Virus record (IMG/VR): IMGVR_UViG_3300035670_000942
Location: 1 to 30,566 of that record
Strand: one strand, 5' to 3'
DNA length: 30,566 nucleotides
DNA from: a virus
Part shown: positions 3,482-30,132 of the stretch, one piece after another
How positions within the stretch are numbered: the first letter of the stretch is position 1
Layout of the letters: each line of letters opens with the position of its first letter
Program-made: the position numbers and the translations under genes
The notes under the pieces: generated by a model
Seen by the model: the letters and a program-made list of their open reading frames with translations, nothing else
Databases searched by the model: none
Told to the model about the DNA's origin: nothing

Positions 3482-3904
3482 ATGGAAAGAAAAGAATTAG
3501 TAGCAACAGCTACACAAGCAGGAATCAAAGGTGCTCACACAATGAAAAGCACAGTATTGGAAGAAATATTGGCTAACATGAGTAAATCAGAAACAACAGG
3601 TAAACGAGGCCGACCAGTGAATCCAAACAGTACTAGACAAGTAAGGATAGCTGAATTAGCAGAGAAGAGAGCGAATGGTGAATTGAAGAAGGGCCGACCA
3701 ATCAAAGCAGATAGTGCTAGACAAATGAGGTTAGTTGAGTTAGAAACTAAAAGAGCAAATGGTGAGTTGAGAAAAGGCAGACCAGTGAGTAATGAGAGTG
3801 CTAGACAGAAACGGATAGCAGAGTTAGAAGCTAAAAAAGCAGCTAATGGAGGTGTGATGCCGCTTGGTAGACCAAAAGTAGTAATTAACGAGACCGCTTC
3901 ATAA
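3482..3904 (+). CDS. Rho_N/SAP-like head plus AT-hook-like repeat protein (140 aa)
   Basis: Residues about 4-33 (KELVATATQAGIKGAHTMKS...) match by eye the helix-extended-helix pattern of Rho_N/SAP-type nucleic-acid-binding domains. Residues 41-131 carry Gly-Arg-Pro cores at 43, 71, 99 and 129, so spacing is 28, 28 and 30. The inter-core helices (x-S-x-R-Q-x-R-x-x-E-L-x-x-K-R-A-N-G-E-L) match the repeat protein at 1855. It is a paralogue of that gene with an added head and richer Ala content and GC. A double nucleic-acid-binding architecture is inferred; a role in DNA compaction or transcription is possible. The stop overlaps a 12-bp palindrome. The opposite strand is open here only because of the repeat's composition. 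Confidence 0.8.
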   Translation: MERKELVATATQAGIKGAHTMKSTVLEEILANMSKSETTGKRGRPVNPNSTRQVRIAELAEKRANGELKKGRPIKADSARQMRLVELETKRANGELRKGRPVSNESARQKRIAELEAKKAANGGVMPLGRPKVVINETAS

Positions 3905-11488: not shown

Positions 11489-11833
11489 ATGAAAAGTGTA
11501 GATTTTAAAAAAATAATTAAAGAAGCTGTTAAGGAAGCAATTCAAGAAGAATTAAAAGATATCTTATTGGAAGCAGTTAAAACACCTAAAACAGTTGTTA
11601 GAGAATCATACTCATCAACAACTAATCCAATTCAACCATCTCAACCTATGTTTAATTCAAATATAGATTTAAGATCAAAATATGCTGATGTTTTAGGAGA
11701 AACAGCTTTAAGCTTTACTTCAAATGATGTTCAAGTTCCATTTAGGCCCCAAGTTAGTGATCCTATAAATGGTAATTTAGGAATAGGAGAAGTAGGAATG
11801 GATCAAATTATGGGACTATTAAATAATAAATAA
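11489..11833 (+). CDS. small baseplate-region protein (114 aa)
   Basis: 114 residues. An N-terminal amphipathic Lys/Glu-rich helix (residues 5-30, DFKKIIKEAVKEAIQEELKD) is followed by a Ser/Pro/Gln-rich linker and a C-terminal part with G-N-L-G-I-G-E-V-G-M-D-Q-I-M. Proteins of this design occur beside baseplate genes in T4-type phages, where they may be small structural or capping proteins; I recall no name. It sits after candidate late promoter copy 2 and is coupled (TAATG) to the gp25 gene. Confidence 0.65.
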   Translation: MKSVDFKKIIKEAVKEAIQEELKDILLEAVKTPKTVVRESYSSTTNPIQPSQPMFNSNIDLRSKYADVLGETALSFTSNDVQVPFRPQVSDPINGNLGIGEVGMDQIMGLLNNK

Positions 11834-12240: not shown

Positions 12241-14085
12241 ATGGCTACTTTAAATAGAGATATAAGATACATTAATCGTGATTTTTCTGAGTTTAGAGCT
12301 CGATTAATAGAATACACTAGAACCTACTTCCCTAACACATACACAGACTTTTCTCCTGCCTCCCCAGGGATGATGTTTATGGAACAAGCAGCATATGTAG
12401 GTGATGTTTTAAGTTTCTATTTGGATAACCAATTTCAAGAAACCTTTACACAATACGCTCAACAAACAAATAATGTATTTGAATTAGCATACATGTTTGG
12501 GTATAAACCTAAAACTACAGGAGCTGCCCAAGTTGTAGTAGATTTTTACCAACAAATCCCTTCTAAACTTTCAGGGTCAGAATATATACCTGATTTTGAT
12601 TATGCTTTAACTATAGGTGAAAATTCAACAGTAAATTCTCAAAATGGAACAACATTTTTAATACAAGATAAAGTAGATTTTTCTGTATCTAGTTCCCAAG
12701 ATCCAACTGAAATTTCTATATACCAAATAGCTGGTAATATACCTCAATATTACTTACTAAAAAAGAGCAGAAAAGCTATTTCAGCGGCTATCAGTAGCCA
12801 AACATTCTCATTTGGTATCCCAGCACCTTTTCAAACTGTCAATATACAAGCTCCAAATATTATTAAAATCTTAGATGTCTTTGATACCCAAGGAAATAAA
12901 TGGTATGAAGTAGATCATTTGGGTCAAGAAATGGTGTTAGATCCTATTAAAAACACTAATATAAATGACCCTAATAAAATAAATGATACTCCTTATTTAT
13001 TAAGACTTAAAAAAATACAAAGACGTTTTGCTACCCGTTTTACTTCATTATCAAACCTCCAATTACAGTTTGGTGCTGGTTCTCCATATGATACTGATGA
13101 AGAAATTACTCCTAATCCAAATAATGTAGGTATAGGATTACCATTTGAACAAGATAAATTAACAGTAGCTTATTCACCTGTGAATTTTCTTTACACTGGG
13201 ACTTATGGGATTTCTCCTTCAAATACTACATTAACAGTAAGATATCTTACTGGTGGGGGTGTAGGGTCTAACATAGCAGCTAATACTTTAACAGGCGTAA
13301 ATAATATAACCCCTAGATTTAATCAAATCAATCTAAACCCTGTTACCTCCAATTATATATTTAACTCTCTCTCTTCTAACAACCCAGAAGCAGCATCTGG
13401 AGGTAGAGGAGGAGATACATTAGAAGAAATTAGGCAAAATACTTTATCACTTATTGCATCTCAAAAACGATCAGTTACTGCTGATGATTATTTAATTAGA
13501 GCTTTAAGTATGCCATCTGATTATGGGGTTATTTCTAAAGCTTACATTGAACAACCTAAACTAACAGATAATCAAGTTTCAACTATTGAGACTTTAAATT
13601 TATATATTTTATCTTTAAATTCTCAAGGAACTTTAGATTATGCTACTCAAACATTAAAAGATAATTTAAGAACATATCTAGCCCAATATAGAATGATTGG
13701 TGATAACATTGAAATTAGAGATGCTTACATTATTAATATTGGAGTAGATTTTGAAATTATAGTATTACCTGAATATAATAATAACGAAGTATTATTAAGT
13801 TGCATTGGGGCTTTACAAACTTACTTTAATACAAATAGATGGCAACTAAACCAGCCTATACTACTTAAAGATTTATACATCTTACTAGACCGAGTTTCAG
13901 GAGTTCAAACTGTTAAAAATATTTTTATAAACAATAAAGCCGGAACAAACTCAGGATATTCCAAATATGCATACGACATAGCAGGAGCTACTCAAAATCA
14001 AGTAGTATACCCATCATTAGACCCTAGCATTTTTGAAGTAAAATATCCTAATCAAGATATAAAAGGTAAAGTAGTTCCTTTATAA
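12241..14085 (+). CDS. baseplate wedge protein gp6-like (baseplate J family)
   Basis: 614 residues (T4 gp6 is 660). The N terminus (residues 1-70) has the typical D-x-x-Y-I-N-R-D-F-S-E-F-R-A-R-L-I-E-Y and F-S-P-A-S-P-G-M-M-F-M-E-Q-A-A-Y-V-G-D-V-L-S-F-Y-L-D arrangement of gp6 proteins. Residues about 385-425 carry G-G-R-G-G-D-T-L-E-E-I-R-Q-N and S-V-T-A-D-D-Y-L-I-R-A-L, the baseplate J/gp6 hallmark. The C-terminal part resembles the wedge dimerisation and tail-sheath-contacting region. It sits directly after gp25. It forms the inner baseplate ring, which opens during sheath contraction. Confidence 0.92.
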   Translation: MATLNRDIRYINRDFSEFRARLIEYTRTYFPNTYTDFSPASPGMMFMEQAAYVGDVLSFYLDNQFQETFTQYAQQTNNVFELAYMFGYKPKTTGAAQVVVDFYQQIPSKLSGSEYIPDFDYALTIGENSTVNSQNGTTFLIQDKVDFSVSSSQDPTEISIYQIAGNIPQYYLLKKSRKAISAAISSQTFSFGIPAPFQTVNIQAPNIIKILDVFDTQGNKWYEVDHLGQEMVLDPIKNTNINDPNKINDTPYLLRLKKIQRRFATRFTSLSNLQLQFGAGSPYDTDEEITPNPNNVGIGLPFEQDKLTVAYSPVNFLYTGTYGISPSNTTLTVRYLTGGGVGSNIAANTLTGVNNITPRFNQINLNPVTSNYIFNSLSSNNPEAASGGRGGDTLEEIRQNTLSLIASQKRSVTADDYLIRALSMPSDYGVISKAYIEQPKLTDNQVSTIETLNLYILSLNSQGTLDYATQTLKDNLRTYLAQYRMIGDNIEIRDAYIINIGVDFEIIVLPEYNNNEVLLSCIGALQTYFNTNRWQLNQPILLKDLYILLDRVSGVQTVKNIFINNKAGTNSGYSKYAYDIAGATQNQVVYPSLDPSIFEVKYPNQDIKGKVVPL

Positions 14086-24380: not shown

Positions 24381-24836
24381 ATGGAAAATTGGTTATATGG
24401 TGATAAAAGAATAGAATCTTTAAAAGACTTCCCCGAAGGAACATATGGGTTCATTTACCTCACAATACATGAACCTTCAGGTAAAGCATATTTAGGTAAA
24501 AAATCTTTATATCACAATGTAAAGAAAAAACTTACTAAGAAAGAATTAGCTGAACAAACTGGTAGAGGTCGAAAATCTTTAACAACCACTATACAAAAAG
24601 AATCTGACTGGAAAACTTATTATGGCTCGGCTAAACCTATAGTTGAATTGATTAAACAAGGTAAACAAAAAGATTTTATACGTAAAATTTTATATTTAGC
24701 TCCTAACAAAAAACTTTTAACATATTATGAATGTAAATATTTATTTCAATTGGGTGTATTAGAAAAACCTGATGAATGGATAAATGATAACATTCTTGGA
24801 AAATTTTATTCTAAAGATTTTGTTTCTATAGATTAA
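24381..24836 (+). CDS. SegE-like GIY-YIG domain endonuclease
   Basis: 151 residues. A divergent GIY-YIG core: G23-F-I-Y26 for the first motif, A-Y38-L-G-K-K for the second, S-D-W-K-x-Y-Y-G-S (75-83), and Y-Y-E117 with the candidate metal-binding Glu. The S-D-W-K-x-Y-Y-G-S block is typical of phage SegE/Seg-like GIY-YIG proteins. It may be a homing enzyme or a DNA-processing nuclease, and it lies at the junction between tail and replication genes where a mobile or exported nuclease would be expected. No intron or interrupted gene is seen beside it. Confidence 0.8.
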   Translation: MENWLYGDKRIESLKDFPEGTYGFIYLTIHEPSGKAYLGKKSLYHNVKKKLTKKELAEQTGRGRKSLTTTIQKESDWKTYYGSAKPIVELIKQGKQKDFIRKILYLAPNKKLLTYYECKYLFQLGVLEKPDEWINDNILGKFYSKDFVSID

Positions 24837-25774: not shown

Positions 25775-26535
25775 ATATAAAAACATCACACAATCGTATT
25801 CTTCAAATATCTGAAGACGCACAACAAATTACAATGCCTGATTCAAGGTATTACCTTAGAAATGGAGAATATTATCCTTCAATTACTTATGTTTTACAAT
25901 GTTACCCTAAAGGAAAACATTTTGAAGATTGGTTAAAACAAATGGGAAACAATGCTGATTACGTAATGAGAAAATCAGCTGAAGATGGAACTAAAGTACA
26001 TAATATGATTGAGGATTATTTAAATGGGAAAGAATTAAACTTTCTTTCTAAAGATAATACCCCATTATATGAAGCAGATATATGGCAGATGTTCCTTAAA
26101 TTTGTTGAATTTTGGGAAACATACAAACCTGAACTAATAGGAACTGAAATACACTTATTTTCAGATAAATTAAAAATAGCAGGTACTTGTGATTTAGTTT
26201 GTAAAATAGAAGATCAAGTATGGATAATAGATTACAAAACATCTAACCACTTACATACAATATATGAATTCCAATTAGCAGCTTATGATGCATGCTATGA
26301 AGAATGTTTCGGAATAAAACCAGATAGACGTGGTATATTATGGTTAAAATCATCTAAACGTAAAGCAGCTAAAGATAAAATGCAAGGTAAAGGGTGGGAA
26401 GTATTTGAATCAAGTAGAACTCAAGATGAAAATTTAAATTTATTTAAAACAGTAAAAACTGTATTTGATATAGAAAATCCTAACCATGCTCCATCATTTA
26501 CTGAATTTAAAACGAGTGCTAAACGAGAAGTGTGA
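25771..26535 (+). CDS. PD-(D/E)XK nuclease, RecB/Cas4-like
   Basis: 254 residues. The nuclease core is complete: H77 in G-T-K-V-H-N, E126 in I-G-T-E-I-H, D141 in A-G-T-C-D-L-V, D154-x-K156 in I-I-D-Y-K-T-S, and Q168 in F-Q-L-A-A-Y. These are the family's metal-binding and lysine residues. It probably acts as an exonuclease in recombination or DNA degradation. The Cas4-type four-cysteine iron-sulphur cluster is not evident (cysteines are at scattered positions). It overlaps the primase stop (ATGA) and may share its transcript, suggesting a replication or recombination role. Confidence 0.85.
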   Translation: MNIKTSHNRILQISEDAQQITMPDSRYYLRNGEYYPSITYVLQCYPKGKHFEDWLKQMGNNADYVMRKSAEDGTKVHNMIEDYLNGKELNFLSKDNTPLYEADIWQMFLKFVEFWETYKPELIGTEIHLFSDKLKIAGTCDLVCKIEDQVWIIDYKTSNHLHTIYEFQLAAYDACYEECFGIKPDRRGILWLKSSKRKAAKDKMQGKGWEVFESSRTQDENLNLFKTVKTVFDIENPNHAPSFTEFKTSAKREV

Positions 26536-26546
26536 TATGTATAATC

Positions 26547-26969
26547 ATGACGAAATTAACTCATCTATTAAACGAGATGTACGCTGAACCTAGTAAGTTT
26601 AGTTATCCACCGTTAATTAAATCTCTTACTGAGTTCATGTTAAACAAAGGAATGAATATTCGCCCTTTACCTAAAGTAAAATTTATAGATAATGATACTG
26701 AAAATGCTGAAAACTTTTTTGGCAGAACAGCTCATTATGACCCAACAAATAAAGTAATTGTACTTTATACAATGGGACGCCACCCAAAAGACATCATGCG
26801 TTCCTTTTCACATGAAATGGTTCACCATATGCAAAATTGCGAAAACAGACTAAACAATATACCCACTACTAATATTACAGAAGATGATTATCTATATGAA
26901 TTAGAAAAAGAAGCTAATACTTTAGGAACTATGACATTTAGAGAGTGGACAGATACTTTAACAAAATAA
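26547..26969 (+). CDS. HExxH zinc metallopeptidase-like protein (140 aa)
   Basis: Starting at ATG 26547, 140 residues; a GTG at 26532 overlapping the previous stop would add 5 residues. Residues 89-93 (H-E-M-V-H-H-M-Q) are a classical zinc HExxH motif, with Y-E118-L-E120-K-E-A-N following as candidate third ligand, as in gluzincin-type peptidases. The N-terminal 60 residues are not assigned. The HExxH core plus E-x-E-x-E-A arrangement resembles small phage-encoded metallopeptidases. A substrate such as a phage prohead or host protein is inferred only. It is in the same operon as nuclease and zinc-ribbon genes. Confidence 0.8.
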   Translation: MTKLTHLLNEMYAEPSKFSYPPLIKSLTEFMLNKGMNIRPLPKVKFIDNDTENAENFFGRTAHYDPTNKVIVLYTMGRHPKDIMRSFSHEMVHHMQNCENRLNNIPTTNITEDDYLYELEKEANTLGTMTFREWTDTLTK

Positions 26970-28187: not shown

Positions 28188-28643
28188 ATGGCAGATAATT
28201 TTGATTTAAAAAAATTCTTAACAGAAAGCAAAGCTTTAGAGAATTTAAACCCAGTAATAGCTAAAGAAAATCTTTCTGAAAATAGCCTTCGAGACAAAAT
28301 TCGTGAAATGGTTATAGCTGAACTTTCTACAGAAGAACTTGAAGAAGCTAAAAAGAAAAAAGACGAAGAAGCAGAAGATGTTGAATCTGAAGATGTATCA
28401 ATTGAAGACATCCCAACAGCAGATGAAATGCCTGCTGATGATGAAATGCCCGCAGAAGATACTTCAACTGATACTGGTTTAGAAAGCGTAGCTGCTAATT
28501 TAGAAGGTACAGAAAGTGAAGTTATGGACCACTTAATGAGTGCTCTTAAAATAGCTAAAGGAATGAATAACGAAAAACTTACAACACAAATAGGAAACAC
28601 ACTAAAATTCTTTGTTAGTGAGTATATTGGTGGAGGTGAGTAA
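28188..28643 (+). CDS. acidic structural/core-like protein (151 aa)
   Basis: 151 residues, very acidic. The N terminus N-F-D-L-K-K-F-L-T-E-S and K-I-R-E-M-V-I-A-E-L-S resembles start segments of small prohead-core or internal proteins of T4-type marine phages. Residues about 60-100 form an Asp/Glu/Pro low-complexity run with repeated A-D-E-M-P/A-D-D-E-M-P units. The C-terminal helix (V-M-D-H-L-M-S-A-L-K-I-A-K-G-M) may pack in an assembly. It is the first gene after late promoter copy 5, which fits a virion or scaffold protein. The opposite frame is open only because of the repeats. Confidence 0.6.
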   Translation: MADNFDLKKFLTESKALENLNPVIAKENLSENSLRDKIREMVIAELSTEELEEAKKKKDEEAEDVESEDVSIEDIPTADEMPADDEMPAEDTSTDTGLESVAANLEGTESEVMDHLMSALKIAKGMNNEKLTTQIGNTLKFFVSEYIGGGE

Positions 28644-28670: not shown

Positions 28671-28841
28671 ATGAACACACAAGAATTAATTACAACAATG
28701 GAGACATTGTTAGAGACAGTAAAAATTGAAAATGAAAAAACATCTAAAGCAGCTCATGGACGTGCTCGTAAAGCCGCTAGCGAATTAAAAAAATTAGCTG
28801 GTGAATTTAAGAAAGTGTCTTCTGCTGAAGATAAAGCTTAA
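28671..28841 (+). CDS. histone H1-like (Hc1-type) small protein (56 aa)
   Basis: 56 residues in a frame too short for usual thresholds. The helix at 1-22 (M-N-T-Q-E-L-I-T-T-M-E-T-L-L-E-T-V) is followed by K-T-S-K-A-A-H-G-R-A-R-K-A-A-S-E-L-K-K-L-A-G-E-F-K-K-V. The A-A-x-x-R-x-R-K-x-x-x-E-L-K-x-L-A pattern is that of the Bacteroidota histone H1-like Hc1 proteins, which bind DNA. It probably helps condense or organise phage or host DNA, and it supports a Bacteroidota host. It sits between two genes of a late block, so it could be packaged in the virion. No Lys/Ala-rich tail follows. Confidence 0.7.
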   Translation: MNTQELITTMETLLETVKIENEKTSKAAHGRARKAASELKKLAGEFKKVSSAEDKA

Positions 28842-28852
28842 TTTATTGTATT

Positions 28853-29638
28853 ATGATTTCTGAAAACGAACTTACTCCTGACCAAAAATATAAGATGGAG
28901 CAAGTTCTTTTTGGAATGAAAAAGAATAAAAGAAACTTTGTAAAAAAATACGGAATGAAAGCTGAAGCTCTTATGAAAAAAAGAGCTTTAAAAATTGCTA
29001 AACAATATACACCTGAACCAACTATTGAAGAAATGGAACATGATCGATTAAAAAAATTAGTACAAGATGTATTATCTAAACCATTAGAAGAAAAATCATC
29101 ATTTACCTCAAAATATGATGATAAATTTAATGATAAACGTAAAAATTTACCTGATGGTTTGCAAAAAGCTATCTTAAAAAAACAAGGTGGATTAGATGAA
29201 GATCTTGATTTAGGTCATGAAGATGATGAACCACATATGGTTAAAGGTGAATTATATAAAATAGCTCAAAATGCTATGGCATTATATAAAATGCTAGAAC
29301 CATTTGATAAAATAGAACAAGAAGTAGATTTACCTGCTTGGTGGCAATCTAAAATTACAAAAGCATGTACTATGTTAGGTAGTGCAAAAAGTTACCTTGA
29401 ATTTGAATTAAAAGAACCTCAAATTGATGCTATGACAGATGTTATGTCTCAAGAAGATGTAATTGATGAAGGTAAACTTACTAAAAAAGAAGAAAAAATA
29501 GTTAAAGCTCTTAAAAAAACTGGAGATTTTAAAAAAGATGATCCTCAAATGTATGCTATAGCTAAAAAACAAGCTAAAAAATCAAAAGCAAAAAAATTAG
29601 CTGAAACTATACTACAACGTCTTAAAGATAAAAAATAA
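28853..29638 (+). CDS. virion/core-like protein, highly charged (261 aa)
   Basis: 261 residues, very Lys/Glu-rich. Residues about 5-45 form a basic helical region, and the central M-V-K-G-E-L-Y-K-I-A-Q-N-A-M-A-L-Y-K-M-L-E and V-D-L-P-A-W-W-Q-S-K-I-T-K-A-C-T-M-L-G-S-A-K-S-Y-L-E-F-E-L block (about 130-190) is a domain I recall from unnamed proteins of marine T4-type phages. The Lys-rich C terminus (K-K-Q-A-K-K-S-K-A-K-K-L-A) could contact DNA. It is the third gene of the last late block and ends in TAATG overlap with the next gene. An internal or core virion protein is a reasonable inference. Confidence 0.65.
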   Translation: MISENELTPDQKYKMEQVLFGMKKNKRNFVKKYGMKAEALMKKRALKIAKQYTPEPTIEEMEHDRLKKLVQDVLSKPLEEKSSFTSKYDDKFNDKRKNLPDGLQKAILKKQGGLDEDLDLGHEDDEPHMVKGELYKIAQNAMALYKMLEPFDKIEQEVDLPAWWQSKITKACTMLGSAKSYLEFELKEPQIDAMTDVMSQEDVIDEGKLTKKEEKIVKALKKTGDFKKDDPQMYAIAKKQAKKSKAKKLAETILQRLKDKK

Positions 29639-30132
29639 TGACTAGGGAAGAACTCATAGCACGTATTAAAAGACTTGCTCCTCAAGTAATTAAAAGACAG
29701 GAGAAAATAGAAACTATTGCTGTTGAGTATGATGAATTAACTAAATTCCCTGAGTTAAAACATGTCATTGTAGATTTACTAACTAGTGATTTTAATAAAT
29801 TTATCTCATCTATAGATTGGGTAGCTCCTCGTCCTACTACATTTCGTATTAATTTAAAAAATAACCAAGAATTTTATCTTATATATGGCAAACGTAGTTG
29901 GATAGCCCAAATTGAAGGTAAAAAATATTACTTACTTAACTTACCAGAAGAAGAAAGAGCAGCAGAAGCTATCTCCCGTATTTTAAGATACGGAGCTAAA
30001 TCAGAAGACACTATACCTACTGATGAAGAACTAGCAGCAAGCCCATCACCACTACCAGGAGAAACACCACCAGCTGGAGGAGAAACACCAGCAGAAGAAA
30101 CCCCACCTACAGAAGAAACACCTCCGATATAA
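29638..30132 (+). CDS. hypothetical protein with Pro/Glu/Thr tail (164 aa)
   Basis: 164 residues. A compact N-terminal domain (1-120) has mixed alpha/beta composition and the strand-rich R-P-T-T-F-R-I-N-L-K-N-N-Q-E-F-Y-L-I-Y-G-K-R-S-W-I-A-Q-I-E-G-K-K-Y-Y-L-L-N-L. It is followed by a repetitive Pro/Glu/Thr/Gly tail (about 130-164, repeated E-T-P-P and E-E-T-P-P units) that is probably disordered. Not recognised. Coupled to its upstream neighbour by TAATG. Confidence 0.65.
   Translation: MTREELIARIKRLAPQVIKRQEKIETIAVEYDELTKFPELKHVIVDLLTSDFNKFISSIDWVAPRPTTFRINLKNNQEFYLIYGKRSWIAQIEGKKYYLLNLPEEERAAEAISRILRYGAKSEDTIPTDEELAASPSPLPGETPPAGGETPAEETPPTEETPPI

Follow-up and report, generated by a model that had tools for sequence, protein, structure and literature searches.

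The window, as we call the whole 30,566-nucleotide stretch of viral DNA analyzed here, carries a gene for a 56-aa protein of the histone H1-like Hc1 family (PF07432), and relatives of this gene are near-constant in a widespread phage lineage, where they are tied to late virion genes. Phage-encoded Hc1 is already known from the moraphages (PMC12619734, 2025), and the earlier record of it consisted of a few metagenomic jumbo phages. In the reading that we favor, and to which we give about an even chance, Hc1 is made late by a large contractile-tailed Bacteroidota phage and would bind phage DNA in the late phase. The main genes of the window all lie on the plus strand, and the features needed below are as follows.

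28671..28841, plus strand: gene for the Hc1-family (PF07432) protein, 56 aa (evidence from Pfam, AlphaFold2, relatives and dN/dS)
28746..28799, plus strand: codons of the Hc1 core motif, KAAHGRARKAASELKKLA, residues 26-43 in basic helix 2
12241..14085, plus strand: baseplate wedge protein, part of the structural module that lies upstream in this late block (44.6% identity to the counterpart in Flavobacterium phage immuto)
28188..28643, plus strand: acidic 151-aa protein, upstream neighbor, in the same order in most close relatives and without a Pfam match
28853..29638, plus strand: 261-aa protein (g261), downstream neighbor, located after Hc1 in 46 of the 80 viral loci and for which Pfam and profile searches gave no convincing family
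29638..30132, plus strand: 164-aa protein, next in the late block

The open reading frame at 28671-28841 begins with ATG, ends with TAA and encodes MNTQELITTMETLLETVKIENEKTSKAAHGRARKAASELKKLAGEFKKVSSAEDKA; it is separated by 27 nt from the stop of the upstream gene and by 11 nt from the start of the downstream gene. An earlier note on this DNA had assigned the product to Hc1 from the motif K-A-A-x-x-R-x-R-K-x-x-x-E-L-K-x-L-A. This motif is present exactly at residues 26-43 of the 56-aa protein, where the core K-A-A-x-x-R-x-R-K followed by E-(L/I)-x-K aligns with Bacteroidota Hc1. The profile search that the note had proposed also supported membership in the family, as PF07432 matched with 28.3 bits (E 1.6e-6; cut-off 23.5) and the alignment of residues 5-55 with profile positions 2-56 of 57 spanned the whole domain. 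A six-frame search of the record at the DNA level returned only one Hc1 place, 28671-28841, with 26.9 bits.

A short, Lys/Ala-rich, helical protein with a modest score could match Hc1 through its composition and be an unrelated helical hairpin, and it fits such an artefact that sequence and fold searches of the PDB with the window protein gave nothing informative, Foldseek returning no significant match. Nevertheless, we consider this explanation very improbable. Eight residue shuffles and the reversed window protein gave no Hc1 match at E 10, and thus composition does not account for the call. The window motif aligns residue by residue with the bacterial Hc1 sequence NKAAGTRARKxxLExxKL, a profile built from viral copies only retrieves bacterial Hc1 at 3.6e-12 and 1.8e-9 (that is, it reaches the order of 1e-12), and the intermediates immuto, LR745206 and Lak bridge the phage and bacterial groups. 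Comparison at the sequence level therefore confirmed the gene product as a true Hc1-family protein. Searches with the window protein gave zero matches in NCBIfam, a best E of only 0.12 in PHROGs, and zero matches by tblastn against INPHARED phages even at E 1; the named phages with Hc1 described below were found by profile search or with a bacterial or immuto query.

AlphaFold2, run with 22 phage sequences, predicted with confidence a two-helix hairpin for the protein, consisting of helix 3-21, a short turn and helix 26-55 (mean pLDDT 97.2, pTM 0.78). Helix 2 (residues 26-49) has a net charge of +6 and helix 1 of -3, which leaves +2 for the whole protein; the last seven residues have a net charge of -1 and the chain ends at residue 56. 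Among viral structures, the best match was to 'Histone H1 [uncultured virus]' (TM 0.91; E 0.31, not significant), which fits the Hc1 identity. At about twice the length, chlamydial Hc1 has a lysine-rich C-terminal tail, to which its nucleic-acid binding has been assigned. The window protein, in contrast, is the short domain alone and lacks such a tail, although it belongs under the same Pfam family name as this chlamydial protein (HctA), a late-expressed DNA-condensing protein (PMC8343073).

In IMG/VR, 152 stretches encode an Hc1 relative, with a best identity of 96%, and 77 distinct Hc1 sequences were read from the loci of three separate searches. Eight positions (M1, E5, K26, R31, A32, R33, A35, and S50) are invariant in the 22-sequence phage alignment, K40, K41, and L42 are at least 90% conserved in it, and the conserved basic residues are K26, R31, R33, K40, K41, and K48. 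The gene is under purifying selection, as pairwise comparisons with the examined close relatives give a dN/dS of about 0.10-0.26, similar to that of neighboring genes. When relatives were picked by the neighboring primase-like gene, 24 of the 26 loci that reached far enough contained Hc1. The gap between the usual neighbors was closed in the remaining two (L112 and L134), and the gene is thus not strictly required at the locus. All of six large contigs picked independently of Hc1 matched the profile, five of them just under the cut-off, which is what a diverged branch should show.

In a maximum-likelihood tree built on 60 columns, a well-supported split (99/96) separates the window's phages together with immuto and LR745206 from Lak, S-SRM01, LR756500, and the bacterial copies. 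Hc1 of the phages on the window side, to which most of the sampled phage copies belong, has four residues fewer between the helices than bacterial Hc1, and the phage clade has KAAHGRARKA where Bacteroidota Hc1 has NKAAGTRARK. The tree, which is weak at this length, is compatible with one old, vertically kept phage branch of Hc1, and the copies of Lak, S-SRM01, and other phages outside the clade are probably separate acquisitions. The bacterial copies were drawn from plasmid-collection records and some are possibly chromosomal fragments; Bacteroidota plasmid records do contain genes annotated as 'histone H1'. Bacteroidota Hc1 proteins, such as those of Chryseobacterium (WP_066749871.1) and Bacteroides (WP_007750534.1), resemble the window protein in being single-domain proteins of 56-58 aa with the K-A-A-x-x-R-x-R-K core and a full-length profile match, whereas these two score 76-81 bits against 28 for the window protein.

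The window's clade includes QQO91992.1 of the cultured Flavobacterium phage vB_FspM_immuto (Immutovirus), a 57-aa protein that is 39% identical to the window protein and scores at the Pfam Hc1 cut-off. Immuto shares a related tail/baseplate block with the window, but its Hc1 gene follows GroEL and does not occupy the head/tail-block position seen in the window. Although annotated as a 'hypothetical protein', this relative belongs to a cultured phage-host pair, immuto and Flavobacterium sp. LMO8, so that phage use of histone-like DNA organisers is directly testable. Hc1 was also found in 15 Prevotella Lak megaphage records, in two huge uncultured phages (634 and 462 kb), in the larger of which the gene follows a UvsX-like recombinase, and in Synechococcus phage S-SRM01, where it is annotated as 'histone H1'. 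The Lak and S-SRM01 proteins are phage-encoded like that of the window but group with bacterial-type Hc1. PF07432 has been reported in four complete moraphage genomes, of a lineage whose predicted hosts are mostly Bacteroidota, and genome compaction was proposed as its role (PMC12619734). By that description the moraphages are similar to the window's phage, being large aquatic phages with PF07432 and predicted Bacteroidota hosts; they measure 200-307 kb, whereas the largest window relatives used are contigs of 131-174 kb that are perhaps incomplete. A search of a literature library did not find an experimental paper on phage Hc1.

Longer relatives bear out the placement of the gene in a late block, which the earlier note had also claimed, because baseplate, terminase, portal, protease, and major capsid genes lie nearby. 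In the closest long relative, a 131-kb contig (L002), the order runs from baseplate genes through Hc1 to terminase, portal, head maturation protease, major head protein, and tail sheath. Among 80 viral Hc1 loci, 79 have the gene in one of three late-block slots on the coding strand of the block, and L079 is the sole unclassified one. The commonest slot (49 of 80) is that of the window, after the acidic protein and/or before g261. In 26 loci, some of which show one flank only, Hc1 lies between g293 and an FAD-type oxidoreductase just upstream of terminase, and in four it stands 15 nt after the prohead protease and 186 nt before the scaffold gene, which is followed by the major capsid gene. The confinement of these repeated moves to one block suggests that Hc1 is co-expressed with virion genes. 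A scan of the window for a Bacteroidota-type promoter motif gave a single match, which was on the wrong strand, where chance alone would give 0.48, and sigma-70-like sites were at or under the shuffled expectation.

A Bacteroidota host, to which the motif had been taken to point, is likely. Besides the 'histone H1' relatives on plasmid records, the window's gene order tracks that of immuto closely, and its baseplate wedge protein shares 44.6% identity with the immuto counterpart and 44.3% with the one in Microcystis phage Mel-JY01. None of 27 window genes is preceded by a Shine-Dalgarno-like motif, compared with 2 of 33 genes in immuto and 11 of 33 in the Microcystis phage, and such sequences are usually absent in Bacteroidota (PMC9723584). 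The presence of Hc1 is by itself no proof of host, since the cyanophage S-SRM01 carries one. In further support of Bacteroidota, Hc1 is rare in another phylum, that of a 'Candidatus Pelagibacter' metagenome-assembled genome (MAG), where 2 of 200 genomes have it, one being that MAG. This MAG gave the sole match in a scan of genome contigs, for which a bacterial origin was rejected, as the gene has g261 and g164 of the phage as its neighbors. In addition to the contig with g261 and g164 (CAJQJC010000016.1), the MAG contains a second Hc1 contig that looks phage-like, and the two (L245, L256) are probably misbinned. In one genome of the same phylum, a single 1.7-Mb contig carries two Hc1 genes (L266 and L267; 43.6 and 42.1 bits), one of which adjoins a dUTPase-like gene.

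As to function, the earlier note had suggested that Hc1 might condense the genome, mark packaged DNA or interfere with the host nucleoid. Gene order is our reason for proposing late expression, and the family together with the conserved basic helix suggests DNA binding; the head genes nearby make phage DNA a more probable target than the host nucleoid. In this reading Hc1, a predicted two-helix hairpin with a conserved basic helix 2, is probably made late alongside virion proteins and would most likely bind phage DNA at that stage, either compacting the pre-packaging pool or entering the head with the DNA. Several findings count against this reading. The overall charge is just +2 with an acidic helix 1, and the lysine-rich C-terminal tail is absent. 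In immuto and the 634-kb phage, outside the lineage, Hc1 is not beside head genes, and in two of 26 relatives the gene is missing at the locus. We hold it doubtful, if conceivable, that the old phage branch is a virion chromatin protein, a captured H1-like protein that packages or pre-compacts large Bacteroidota phage genomes; if true, it would parallel the histones of giant eukaryotic viruses.

The main rivals are a head-protein role and host takeover. Small core proteins are encoded in the prohead protease-scaffold region of T4-like phages, and the four loci with Hc1 directly between these two genes would suit a role in the prohead core or inside the head, in which Hc1 would be a minor capsid component, either structural or associated with the scaffold, and DNA binding would be secondary. 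This slot accounts for just four of 80 loci, however, the N-terminus of Hc1 lacks a leader like those of several neighboring proteins, and the best-conserved part, the basic residues of helix 2, points to nucleic acid; we therefore rate such a role as rather unlikely. Host takeover, in which phage Hc1 would bind or displace host Hc1 or the nucleoid and in this way repress transcription or condense the DNA of the host, is in our judgment unlikely. It would be in keeping with the homologous 'histone H1' genes of Bacteroidota, with the shortened, diverged Hc1 of the phage clade, as for mixed oligomers or competition with the host protein, and with the position of Hc1 near replication/recombination genes in immuto and a huge phage. 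Hc1 expressed in E. coli is likewise reported, in work cited in PMC12619734, to lower protein and DNA synthesis. Takeover is usually an early function, yet Hc1 of the lineage sits among late virion genes in all three slots, which counts against this rival.

Some other features of the window and its relatives were also observed. A recurrent short N-terminal peptide of the form LxxLIKEVL occurs on otherwise unrelated late-block proteins, namely those at 11489-11833, 26532-26969, and 28188-28643 in the window and in L250, L252, and L253; examples of this type are MKSVDFKKIIKEAV, MTKLTHLLNEM, MADNFDLKKFLTES, MERLHKLIKEVL, and MSRLRDLIKEVL. In one relative 6 of 22 genes carry it, and in another 6 of 23, against 0.2-0.3 expected. 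Because the T4-type protease cuts after [LI]xE, the peptide might be a capsid-targeting leader. The protein at 26532-26969 also has an HExxH motif (SHEMVHHMQ) and is a putative zinc metallopeptidase, for which profile matches were only weak. The genes at 1855-2175 and 3482-3904 encode paralogous proteins with three to four repeats of about 28 residues, each with K-x-GRP; these repeats resemble AT-hooks, and the proteins are possibly DNA-binding repeat proteins. Finally, SegE-type GIY-YIG proteins are encoded at 24381-24836 in the window and in L242 and L257; the label 'NAD synthetase', which PHROGs (phrog_447) and phage records give to such proteins, is apparently an annotation error that has spread.
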